A model generated the notes under the pieces. That model saw nothing but the letters and a program-made list of their open reading frames with translations. It had not been told where the DNA came from and did not search any database. Positions 2,792-25,857 of a stretch of 45,527 bases of DNA are shown one piece after another. How positions within the stretch are numbered: the stretch's first letter is position 1; each line of letters opens with the position of its first letter. The DNA is taken from contig CANROU010000008.1 in the NCBI GenBank assembly GCA_947632325.1, positions 1 through 45,527 on the forward strand, in the 5' to 3' direction. Both the position numbers and the translations under genes were made by a program. The DNA is from an uncultured Bacilli bacterium. Its GTDB lineage: Bacteria; Bacillota_I; Bacilli_A; RF39; UBA660.

Positions 2792-4441
2792 CTAAAAAAT
2801 ACCTTGAATTTCTAAATTATCATTTAAATCTATTTGTTCATAATTAGCGTGTTTAGGTAAACCAGGCATAGTCATAATATCCTTTAATAAAACTGTAATA
2901 AAGCCTGCGCCATTATAAATAGATACATCTTTAACTGTAACAGTAAAATCTTTTGGAGCACCTAATTTAGTAGGATCATCAGTAAAAGAATATTGTGTTT
3001 TAGCTACACAAATAGGTAAAGAACTCATGTCATTTTGTTCTATAAATTTAATTTTTTCTTCGGCTTCTTTACTATAAATTACTTTTTCACTACGATATAT
3101 TTCTCGACAGATAGTTTCTATTTTTTCTTTAATTGATTGATCAAAAGAGTAAAGAGGCGCAAAGTTAGAAGGCTTCTCACACAATGATATAACTTCTTTT
3201 GCTAAAGAAAGAGCTCCTTTTCCGCCATCAATATAGGCACTACTAGTTAGACATTGAACCCCATAATTAGAACAATAATCTTTTACTATCTGTTCTTCTT
3301 CAGGTATATCAAAAGTATGTTTATTTAAACAAACGACAATTGGTACTTTAAATTTTTTTAAATTTTCAATATGTTGTCCTAAATTAACTAATCCTTTCTT
3401 AAGGGCAGAAAGATTAGGGACATTAATATCATCTTTACCTACTCCACCATTATATTTTAAACTTTTAATAGTAGCTACTAATACAGCACAATTTGGCTTA
3501 AACTTGGCGATAGGACAAGTTATATCAAAAAATTTTTCAGCTCCTAAGTCAGCACCAAAACCAGCTTCAGTAATGACATAATCTGCAAGGGAAAGAGCTA
3601 ATTTAGTGGCTACGATACTGTTACATCCATGAGCAATATTAGCAAAAGGGCCACCGTGAATCAAAGTTGGTGTATATTCTAGGGTTTGCACTAAATTAGG
3701 TTGGAAACTATCTTTTAATAATACCGTCATAGCTCCTTCTATATGTAAGTCCTTAGCTAACACAAAAGAACCATCTTGTCTACGAGCCACAACAATATTG
3801 CCTAATTTCATTTTTAGATCCTCTAAGGATGTGGCTAAACAAAATAGAGCCATTATTTCACTAGCAGCCGTAATTGTAAATTTATCTAATCTTTCAACGC
3901 CGTTATTTTTTCCTAACCCAATTTTTACTTCCCTTAAGGATCTATCATTAACATCTAAACAACGGTGAAATAAAATTTGATCTTTATCTATTTGTAATTC
4001 ATTACCTTGTTGTAAATGATTATCAATAGCTGCACATAGGAGATTATTACAGGCCGTTATAGCGTGAAAATCACCTGTAAAGTGCAAATTGATATCAGTC
4101 ATGGGAACTACTTGGGAATAACCACCACCAGTGGCGCCACCTTTTAACCCAAAAACAGGTCCAAGCGATGGTTGCCTTAGAGTTAATATAACATTTTTCT
4201 TAAGTTGCTTCATGGCATCAGCTAGTCCAATACTAACTGTTGTTTTACCTTCTCCATAAGGTGTAGGATTCATGGCTGTCACTAATATTAATTTACTATT
4301 TTGTTTAATTTGACCGAATGGTTTAATTTTAGCTTTATAACGTCCATAATATTCTACATTATCAACAGGAACTTTTAATTCCTTAACAATCTCTTTTATA
4401 TCTTTTATCTTGTGTTTACTAGCTATTTCTAAATCTGTCAT
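2792..4441 (-). CDS. fhs: Formate--tetrahydrofolate ligase
   Basis: 549 residues, close to the usual ~555. It makes 10-formyl-THF from formate, ATP and THF in the cytoplasm and feeds one-carbon units to purine and formyl-Met-tRNA synthesis. The P-loop-like motif NPTPYGEGKTT sits at residues 58-68; GPVFGLKGGATGGGYSQV and NLHFTGDFHAI further on are hallmark sequences of the family. The start follows AGAGGTGATAAG. It stands alone, divergent from the thioester adhesin gene; no folate riboswitch-like structure is evident upstream. Confidence 0.97.
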   Translation of the reverse strand: MTDLEIASKHKIKDIKEIVKELKVPVDNVEYYGRYKAKIKPFGQIKQNSKLILVTAMNPTPYGEGKTTVSIGLADAMKQLKKNVILTLRQPSLGPVFGLKGGATGGGYSQVVPMTDINLHFTGDFHAITACNNLLCAAIDNHLQQGNELQIDKDQILFHRCLDVNDRSLREVKIGLGKNNGVERLDKFTITAASEIMALFCLATSLEDLKMKLGNIVVARRQDGSFVLAKDLHIEGAMTVLLKDSFQPNLVQTLEYTPTLIHGGPFANIAHGCNSIVATKLALSLADYVITEAGFGADLGAEKFFDITCPIAKFKPNCAVLVATIKSLKYNGGVGKDDINVPNLSALKKGLVNLGQHIENLKKFKVPIVVCLNKHTFDIPEEEQIVKDYCSNYGVQCLTSSAYIDGGKGALSLAKEVISLCEKPSNFAPLYSFDQSIKEKIETICREIYRSEKVIYSKEAEEKIKFIEQNDMSSLPICVAKTQYSFTDDPTKLGAPKDFTVTVKDVSIYNGAGFITVLLKDIMTMPGLPKHANYEQIDLNDNLEIQGIF

Positions 4442-4654: not shown

Positions 4655-6112
4655 ATGAAAAAAATAACCTTATTTATTACAATCATTTTAAGTATCTTTT
4701 TATTAGGCAACAACCTAGTTCATGCTGAAGGATTTTATGAGGGAGAATACATTAATAACATCTGGATGGTTCGTAAAAACAGTAAACGTTTAATTTATCA
4801 AACAGCTCGATTTTTGAAAAGAAGCAGTGATAATCAATTTGCTTATTGTGTAGAACCATTTACGATTATTAATGCTCAACAAGGATATACGGAAATTGAT
4901 CCTAATACTATTTCACCAAATACTTGGGAAAGAGTTTCTTTATTAGCTTATTATGGATATGGCTATGGTAATCATACTGATCCAAAATGGTATCCTATTA
5001 CCCAAATAATGATTTGGAAAGCTATAGATCCTAGTAGCGATTTTTACTTTACTGATTCTTTGAATGGTAATCGTATTAATATTTTTCAAGCTGAAATGGC
5101 CGAAATAGAATCATTAATTCAAAGATATTATACACAACCTAGTTTTGCTAACCAGGAATTTACTATGGTAAAAGGACATAATAAAACTATAATCGATAAT
5201 AATCAAGTATTAACAAATTATAGATTAACTAATCCTTCACCATATGTTAATATTCATAATAATAGTATAGAAATTATAGCTAATGATTTAATAGAAACTA
5301 ATTTAGAATTTATAAAAGAAGAAAACAATTATAGTATACCACCTATATTGTATTATCATGCTAGTAGTCAAAATTTAATGACCGCTGGTAAAATAAATCC
5401 TATTAATACTAATATTAAAATAAAAGTTATAGAAACAAAATTAGAAGTTAACAAATTAGATAAAGATACTAATCAAGCTATTAGTCAAGGACAAGCACAC
5501 TTAGAGGGATCTATTTTTGGAATTTATGATATGAACGATCAAAAGATAGATCAGGTAATTATTGATGAAAAGATGCAAGCGACTTTTAATAATTTAGATT
5601 TTGGGAAATATTATTTAAAAGAAGAGAAAGCAGGAATCGGTTATTTACTTGATGAAACCATTTATCCTTTTGAAATAACCGAAGATAATACTGCAATTCA
5701 TCTAGATGTTACTAATGAAGTAATTAAAAGAAAAATAGAAATATATAAAAAATATGGAAATCCTCATGATAAAAACATGCTCCCAGAGGCAAATATTCAA
5801 TTTGCTATATATGATATAAATGGTGAGTTAGTAACTACTATTATTACTGATGAAAATGGTTATGCTTCTATAACACTACCTTATGGTAAATATAAAGTAA
5901 AACAAATAAATACTACTGAAGGATATCAAAAAGTTGATGATTTTGAAATAGATATTACGGAAGAAGATATAGAACCGCTTACTTACAATCTAGATAATTT
6001 AGAAATTGAGGTACCTAATACCTATAGTAATCAACAAACAATTTTCTATGGTAATTATTTAATACCTTGTATAACAGGAATATTGTATGTTAAAAAGAAA
6101 CTATACACCTAA
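4655..6112 (+). CDS. Thioester-domain (TQXA) surface adhesin with two SpaA-like domains
   Basis: 485 residues. A signal peptide covers residues 1-24 (KK, then a hydrophobic core ending VHAEG). Residues ~50-130 carry the two halves of a thioester domain: YCVEP with Cys65, and TQIMIW with Gln117, the pair that forms an internal Cys-Gln thioester used for covalent attachment to host surfaces. Two prealbumin/SpaA-like domains follow (about 262-355 and 360-450), with typical GKYYLKEEKAGIGYLLDE and GKYKVKQINTTEGYQ strands. The C-terminus has VPNT at 453-456, a short hydrophobic stretch and KKKLYT, a noncanonical sorting signal. The last 26 bp overlap a sortase gene, its probable dedicated anchor enzyme. 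The start follows AGAAGGCAAGTT. Confidence 0.88.
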   Translation: MKKITLFITIILSIFLLGNNLVHAEGFYEGEYINNIWMVRKNSKRLIYQTARFLKRSSDNQFAYCVEPFTIINAQQGYTEIDPNTISPNTWERVSLLAYYGYGYGNHTDPKWYPITQIMIWKAIDPSSDFYFTDSLNGNRINIFQAEMAEIESLIQRYYTQPSFANQEFTMVKGHNKTIIDNNQVLTNYRLTNPSPYVNIHNNSIEIIANDLIETNLEFIKEENNYSIPPILYYHASSQNLMTAGKINPINTNIKIKVIETKLEVNKLDKDTNQAISQGQAHLEGSIFGIYDMNDQKIDQVIIDEKMQATFNNLDFGKYYLKEEKAGIGYLLDETIYPFEITEDNTAIHLDVTNEVIKRKIEIYKKYGNPHDKNMLPEANIQFAIYDINGELVTTIITDENGYASITLPYGKYKVKQINTTEGYQKVDDFEIDITEEDIEPLTYNLDNLEIEVPNTYSNQQTIFYGNYLIPCITGILYVKKKLYT

Positions 6113-24233: not shown

Positions 24234-24262
24234 AATATCACCTATTAATATTATATCAAAAA

Positions 24263-24279
24263 ACTAGGAATATCCTAGC
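24263..24279 (-). terminator. Terminator of the BspA-like gene
   Basis: CTAGGA/TCCTAG stem with a 3-nt loop, then six T on the minus strand. Confidence 0.7.
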
Positions 24280-24628
24280 TATTATTCATGATTAACAATA
24301 TCAATATTACCATAGGGACCTGTTATACTTCCAGTTATAAAACTATTATTACCACTTCCATTAATTATACCTTCCCAATTAAAACTCTTTCCTGTTAAGT
24401 TTACTATTTTTTTTAATGATTTACAACCATCCAAAGCACGAGTACCAATTGTCGTAACCTTACTTGGTATCGTTATGGTTGTAAAATAGTTAGCTAGATA
24501 AAAAGCATAATCACTAATTGTTGTTAAATTACTTGGTAAAGTGATGCTAGTAACAGTGGTGTTATAAAAAGCGTGCCCTTTTATTATAGTTACTTGATCT
24601 GGTACAACAACTGTTCTATTAGCTCCTG

Positions 24629-24710
24629 CATAAGAATTTAAACTGGTATTATTAATACTACCATCACTATTCCTGTTATAAATAAAAGCTTCATTATCTG
24701 GTAATTGATT
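24629..24710. repeat. Intragenic repeat, copy 1
   Basis: 82 bp nearly identical to 24914-24995; codes for the NEAFIYNRNSDGSI module inside the BspA-like gene. Confidence 0.85.
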
Positions 24711-24913
24711 GCTAGCAAAAGCTGCTCCTTCTATTAGAATGACAGTTGAAGGTATATCTATATGTGTTAATTGATTGTTATTGAAAGCTCCCCATCTAAT
24801 CGTTTTAACACCAGATGGTATAACTACTGATTTTATCTTACTCCAATAAAAAGCTTTTGTGGCGATTGTTACGACATTACTAGGAATAACTATGTTTTCT
24901 CTTTTTTTACCTC

Positions 24914-24995
24914 CATAAGAATTTAAACTAGTATAATCAATACTACCATCACTATTCCTATTATAAATAAAAGCTTCATTATCTGGTAATTGATT
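24914..24995. repeat. Intragenic repeat, copy 2
   Basis: Second copy of the 82-bp module, 204 bp away from the first; could recombine and change the number of repeats. Confidence 0.85.
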
Positions 24996-25766
24996 ATTTA
25001 TAAAAGCACTGGTCCCAATGAAAGTTACTGTATCTGGAATACTTAAATGTGTTAAACCTTTATTAATCATAACATTCTCATGACTACTATCTCCAATCCT
25101 CTTAACTTCTACTCCATTTATCCTATCTGGTATATCTACACTAGTACCACATTTTGTAGCATCATAACCTAATATTGTACCTGTTGCTTCATCAAAAGTA
25201 TAACAGTAGTCCGTTGGTCCTTCTATTATTTGGCTCGTTTCTAATTTTAATTTCTTAGATAACACTTTATCTATCGCTAGATTATCTGCTTTCTCATCTA
25301 TCCATAATCTTAAGTTATAATTATTAGTATTCCCTTTATTTATACTTGTTTCATCTAATAGATTATCTTTTAATTCATCTAATGTTCCACTTTTTATTAC
25401 TACATTTTCTCTTTCTAAACTATATCTTACATATTTATTATCTATTCTCTCTTCATTATCTTCTATTTCATCATCACTTAAATATAATTTATATCTTCCA
25501 TTTATTGTTCCTTTATTTATTACTTGAAAGGAATAAGGTGTACTTTTTAATCCTTCTTCTTCACTCACAGGATATGCTTTTTCTAAATTAATGGTAGTCC
25601 CTTCTTCTTCTAATACTATATTTAAATTACCACTTGTTAATATATTATTCTTATTACTATTTAACGTTAATGTTAAATAGGCATAACTACCACCTATTAA
25701 TAATATTGTTACCATTATTATTAAAATACTTGTTACTAATATTTTCTTGGAGGTCTTATTTAATGA

Positions 25767-25776
25767 CCCCCCCCCC
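25767..25776. repeat. Homopolymeric tract of ten C (ten G on the coding strand)
   Basis: In an extremely AT-rich region, placed six codons after the start of a surface protein gene. Length of ten shifts the frame; nine would restore it. Confidence 0.9.
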
Positions 25777-25828
25777 AGTTAACTTTTTGTTCATTTATCT
25801 ACACCTCTTTTAGTTTATTTATACCTTT

Positions 25829-25857
25829 ATTATATCTTCTTTCTTTTCTATTGACAA
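25829..25857 (-). promoter_or_regulatory. Promoter of the BspA-like gene
   Basis: Minus strand TTGTCA (25852-25857), 17-nt spacer, TATAAT (25829-25834), just behind the hup terminator. Confidence 0.7.

Follow-up and report, generated by a model that had tools for sequence, protein, structure and literature searches.

The question raised by this locus is whether a run of ten G directly behind the start codon of a predicted surface-protein gene serves as a phase-variation switch, as an earlier note made from the sequence had claimed. The window (the whole 45,527-nt stretch of DNA that was analyzed) corresponds to contig C8 in the 35-contig, 1.05-Mb draft genome of an uncultured Bacilli bacterium. 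The tract lies on the coding (minus) strand where the earlier note had placed it, 15 nt downstream of the ATG (Table 1), and the minus strand around the start reads ...AAAGAGGTGTAGATAA ATG AAC AAA AAG TTA ACT GGGGGGGGGG TCATTAAATAAGACC... The ATG at 25794 also has the ribosome binding site (AGAGGTG) and the promoter that had been ascribed to it, the latter (TTGTCA-17-TATAAT) being the best consensus match in the region. With ten G the ATG frame encodes MNKKLTGGGVIK and stops after 12 codons, and the long frame that follows the tract (SLNKTSKKILVTSILIIMVTILLIGGSYAYL...) stays open as far as 24282, so that the start is indeed out of frame; the 477 codons previously given for the downstream frame had been counted from an ATG at 25715 inside the hydrophobic segment, and the whole open frame is 494 codons long. 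Frame computation likewise agrees that nine G would bring the ATG into frame with the long downstream frame (as would twelve) and that the present allele is OFF. The run is unusual in its surroundings: the G/C runs of the window comprise seven of five, none of six to nine and the one of ten, and shuffled sequences predict a G8 only 0.05 times in the window. The two sibling species both have cca immediately after hup, and only in this species does the surface gene stand between hup and cca; the window gene is therefore a lineage-specific insertion, and the inserted unit (24282-25857, by comparison with L295 and L296) has its own promoter and terminator-like site.

Table 1. Features at the start and end of the surface-protein gene in the window.
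Feature	Position	Strand	Basis or remark
G10 tract, proposed slipped-strand switch	25767..25776	-	sequence, frame computation, run statistics
ATG start with AGAGGTG ribosome binding site 7-8 nt upstream	25792..25794	-	sequence
Lead-in AACAAAAAGTTAAC	25778..25791	-	two promoter-spacer tracts of the same genome have it in its GAC form
Promoter TTGTCA-17-TATAAT of the surface-protein gene	25829..25857	-	11 of 12 consensus matches; consensus match only
Surface-protein frame (signal/anchor helix, beta-rich domain, BspA-type LRR region)	24282..25766	-	494 open codons
Terminator-like stem-loop, gene end	24262..24280	-	consensus match only
hup terminator-like site	25880-25863		just before the surface-gene promoter

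The protein encoded behind the tract has a lysine-rich start, a hydrophobic helix ending in SYA-Y, a beta-rich domain and BspA-type leucine-rich repeats. It scores 122.2 bits with PF13306 (LRR_5), for which the curated cut-off is 27.7, its AlphaFold model has a mean pLDDT of 85 (28-sequence alignment), and its PDB fold matches (4gt6, 4cp6, 4h09) are to BspA-type LRR surface proteins from gut bacteria and to PcpA of the pneumococcus. An LRR_5 score above the cut-off together with a matching fold identifies a BspA-type leucine-rich-repeat protein, signal-anchored, in agreement with the BspA-like assignment made earlier. The N-terminal domain recurs in about 20 places in the genome, and a protein-pattern scan of genome contigs with the window protein found no relatives. 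The TasA/camelysin-like models TIGR04088 and PF12389 give no match to the window protein and weak matches to four and two, respectively, of the 28 homologues. Elsewhere in the genome a tandem array of small exported TasA/camelysin-like proteins (L030; G000 C1:108000-116000), with one promoter containing a G9 spacer tract (tract at 4432), is followed by a SipW/archaeal-type signal peptidase. This C1 peptidase scores 103.6 with TIGR02228 (cut-off 51.85), falls below the threshold of the SipW model, and may be the enzyme that exports the window protein.

The tract in the window belongs to a larger set. Pattern searches of the genome, in which homopolymer lengths are the least certain part of the draft, gave 12 distinct sites with nine or more G in a row, where a first-order Markov model predicts 0.35; such lengths lie far beyond what composition predicts, as in phase-variable loci based on simple sequence repeats. 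All 12 have G on the sense strand, and they occupy two functional positions: seven are at coding starts (codon 6-7) and five lie between the -35 and -10 elements. The coding-start element, ATGAACAAAAAGTTAAC-NN-G9-TCATTAAATAAG or, in full, ATGAACAA(A/G)A(A/G)GTTAAC-NN-G9-TCATTAAATAAG, is found in seven surface-protein paralogues (twice on C1, and on C2, C3, C6, C8 and C12, where the copy lacks the 3' part at the contig end), all of which keep the ribosome binding site and ATG; a -35/-10 pair with 17-nt spacing is also kept at the paralogue starts. The C2, C12 and second C1 copies are cut no more than about 120 nt from the tract, so that their gene bodies are not seen. In the five promoter tracts, G9-10 stands between TTGAC(A/G) and TATAAT with spacers of 15, 17, 17, 18 and 18, and the genes behind them include a UDP-galactopyranose mutase/glycosyltransferase operon (L039, C19, tract at 1196), an IspD/TarI-like cytidylyltransferase (L037, C10, tract at 5855) and the C1 exported-protein cluster. 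The first two of these promoters suggest that surface glycans may also be phase-variable. A change in tract length shifts either the reading frame (computed for 24 coding-start tracts) or the promoter spacing (15-18), and by their sequence and position the tracts make up at least 12 putative switches in this genome, seven at coding starts and five in promoter spacers. Neither of the two sibling species examined has the start element, and a scan of viral contigs did not find it.

Related genomes contain tracts in the same two positions, with differing lengths. The sibling species G002 has 21 tracts of at least eight G, and its homologues of the window protein carry the tract in the promoter (TTGACAGAC-G9/10-TGTGAATTATAAT or TTGACAGAT-G10/13-TTG(G)ATGTATACT) at lengths of 9-13 G; the other sibling, G001, has a broken tract (TTGACATGGGTAGGGGATACATTTTATAAT). 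Another LRR gene of G002 has a coding-start tract (MKLSSQKLTRGG...) in the ON frame, the context of which, AAGTTAACTA-G9, is identical to that of the C3 copy in the window genome. A genome of a related genus, G044, has 11 coding-start tracts (one ON, six OFF+1 and four OFF+2), and the genes that follow, where tested, show homology to the N-terminal domain of the window protein; two of its copies (L274 and L284) have equal upstream lengths and differ by one G. Among promoters, one in G014 occurs with 10, 11, 13, 14 and 14 G and a family in G062 with 10 or 11 G. Length variation, which the earlier note had proposed to look for in related genomes, is present there between near-identical copies; among the seven copies of this genome net length is constant. 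Across the family, G9 tracts were found in 39 of 78 genomes, each from another genus, with counts per genome from none to dozens (the highest being 46 distinct tracts in G073 and 35 in G062), and in the rest of the class most genomes have none or few. The exact promoter-spacer pattern has more than 100 matches in public genomes, many of them Bacilli and Clostridia drafts from animal guts, and because these relatives come from animal guts the organism studied here is probably gut-dwelling as well.

Further tracts in relatives concern other kinds of genes. In G002, G10-11 lies inside two frames matching EcoRI-type adenine methyltransferases (PF13651; at the starts of L279 and L293), making phase-variable DNA methylation possible in that species. 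Among prepilin-like genes (KKGFTLIELL), one relative has a G11 tract at the coding start and a second has a G10 tract in the promoter (L078, tract at 1501; L114, tract at 1508). In G003 (L103-L106 and L065), G9-10 is found upstream of genes directly 3' of the palindrome GTGTGC-N5-GCACAC, where the tract may set the spacing between operator and promoter element. A rabbit-gut Bacilli draft (CANRHM) contains at least 12 near-identical promoters of the form AACAAAAAGTTGACAT-G9-TAGTTTTATAAT, nearly all with nine G and a 16-nt spacer (L142, L147, L148, L169, L172, L176, L179, L182, L187, L193, L198).

Taken together, the seven paralogue tracts, the five promoter tracts and the length and frame differences in relatives support the slipped-strand ON/OFF reading put forward earlier, and the G10 tract very probably turns a BspA-type surface protein ON and OFF at its translational start by phase variation. 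Replication would gain or lose one G in the tract, the ATG would enter or leave the frame of the signal segment, and the cell and its progeny would produce the protein or lack it; as assembled, the allele would be in an OFF state in which translation stops after 12 codons. We infer replication slippage at this locus with mixed expression, and a role of the protein as an adhesin or variable antigen. The genes that bear tracts (surface proteins, surface-glycan genes and, in G002, EcoRI-type methyltransferases) are of the usual phase-variable classes.

The alternative that survives best, although it is improbable, is that the tract is fixed in length and OFF+1 is its set state, a steady low level of protein being obtained when RNA polymerase slips in transcription, or ribosomes shift frame, on the G run. 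The best argument for such fixed-length slippage at the RNA level is the constant frame, since neither net length nor the OFF+1 frame differs among the seven copies (7/7), even though two bases ahead of the tract do; in the C8 and C3 copies, moreover, GACCTCC lies a short way behind the G run and can pair with it. Against this, the coding tracts of G044 and G002 together occupy all three frames, the hairpin energies of three copies (z -0.6, -0.6 and -2.4) resemble those of shuffled sequences in all but one, the G044 tracts have no C-rich arm behind them, and the promoter-spacer tracts of the same genome cannot act in this way. An RNA-structure switch was also considered because GACCTCY is able to pair with the ribosome binding site or the G run; as energies were near those of shuffles and the copies fold differently, it is retained only as a part of the alternative just described.

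A constant OFF frame is also compatible with a phase-variable family that is mostly OFF, as described for the BspA-like genes of Candidatus Mycoplasma girerdii (PMC5476646). Under the published poly-G rates of Campylobacter jejuni (PMC8224891), tract lengths settle mostly at 8-10, and finding none of seven copies ON has a p of 0.08; a p of 0.0015 is obtained for all seven in one given frame at the same rates, a value that assumes independence, whereas the copies are not independent, because their starts are nearly identical and their bodies have diverged. In two genomes together, one of 18 coding starts is ON (p 0.007 with equal thirds, 0.022 with the C. jejuni length bias). A special mechanism that keeps the genes OFF is not claimed here, because the p value rises to 0.022 and the copies are not independent. 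The tenth G of the window may itself be a T-to-G substitution instead of a slip. Between the window gene and its close paralogues, dN/dS is 0.49-0.66 (152-236 nucleotide differences per pair) with no internal stops; the frames are intact and constrained and no assembled start is in frame, and therefore expression is expected in some cells, as such frames would hardly be expected to persist otherwise.

It is highly improbable that the out-of-frame copies are silent donors and that recombination between paralogues, with the G tract in a minor part, drives variation. In line with that explanation, near-identical start regions precede gene bodies of only 30-40% identity, and several contig ends fall within the family, but every complete copy has its own promoter, ribosome binding site and terminator-like site, which donors do not need, and the precise G9-10 is left without explanation. 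The contig ends near tracts were rejected as a sign of length polymorphism, since repeats explain them equally well. Least probable of all is that the assembly or the sequencing is wrong or that the gene family has decayed, for although homopolymer lengths are the least certain part of a 35-contig draft, the same net length occurs at seven places, G9-10 also occurs at defined promoter positions, the frames are intact and constrained, and ON copies exist in relatives (L272, L281 and L091).

Tracts of the proposed switches at coding starts and in promoters share a lead-in. The sequence AACAAAAAGTT(A/G)AC occurs exactly seven times in the 1.05-Mb genome, each time adjoining a tract of nine or more G; AACAAAAAGTTRAC matches coding starts five times, in the A form, and promoters twice, in the G form, and with one mismatch it finds two further coding copies and four other sites without a tract, compared with six matches at up to one mismatch for the reversed AACAAAAAGTTRAC control. 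The coding element and the G9 promoter module are equal in length (25 nt), the tenth G of the window occupying the position of T in the promoter module, and the promoter form AACAAAAAGTTGACAT-G9-T is found again in the rabbit-gut Bacilli draft. Since the lead-in always lies against a G tract, in coding and promoter positions alike, both kinds of switch are probably of shared origin, common descent from an ancestral module of lead-in plus tract being the simplest reading of the sequences, and the change probably ran from promoter to coding position, because TTGACA-type tract promoters are widespread in the family. A common coding bias at gene starts (MNKK) could explain part of the likeness. 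Tentatively, at a little under even confidence, we propose a portable module of AACAAAAAGTT(G/A)AC and about nine G that within one genome acts both as a promoter-spacer switch and as a frame switch. Together with its start region it would have reached seven or more surface genes, and about half of the sampled genera of the family would have G-tract switches, some by the dozen. The -35 consensus would have been lost, and capture of the module behind a ribosome binding site and ATG would then have made it a frame switch.

The mechanism of the switch is of a known kind (PMC5476646, PMC9187656), and what is new here is the multi-locus scale in an uncultured family and the module shared by promoter and coding switches. 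One major open question, according to a 2025 review of phase variation (PMC11868660), is whether large sets of phase-variable loci in a genome are truly confined to pathogens or whether the databases are biased. Metagenome reads that already exist could test this in the present family of small-genome uncultured bacteria, some genera of which have from a dozen to several dozen G-tract sites and others none. If promoter and coding tracts owe their lead-in to a common origin, they would exemplify the conversion of one kind of switch into another.

The literature, as far as it was covered, yielded nothing usable on phase variation in RF39-type or other uncultured gut Bacilli. In the promoter-spacer repeat switches of Bordetella fim and Haemophilus hif, a tract between the -35 and -10 elements alters their spacing and hence transcription. 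The five promoter-spacer sites of this genome resemble these systems; the window gene differs in having its tract in the coding start, though its lead-in resembles the promoter form. Campylobacter jejuni has poly-G contingency loci in 12-29 genes, with G7-G13 (PMC8224891), and is similar in its many loci per genome, in lengths centred on 9-10 and in the surface genes concerned, but it belongs to an unrelated phylum and its switching has been measured, whereas here switching is inferred. In the gut commensal Bifidobacterium breve, sortase-dependent pili are switched by an intragenic G tract (PMC9187656), so that slippage in the coding region of a gene for a surface structure decides whether the full product is made, as is proposed here; B. 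breve is an actinobacterium with few such loci, in contrast to the dozen putative loci, including promoters, of this genome. In Candidatus M. girerdii, BspA-like surface genes switch by repeats, the major allele is often OFF, and low-frequency ON variants are seen in metagenome reads (PMC5476646). The repeats there are mostly dinucleotides with variants found in reads, unlike the G9-10 in a conserved start element of the assembly here, and the two organisms have in common families of BspA-like surface genes, a small genome, and a frame switched, here probably, by a short repeat.
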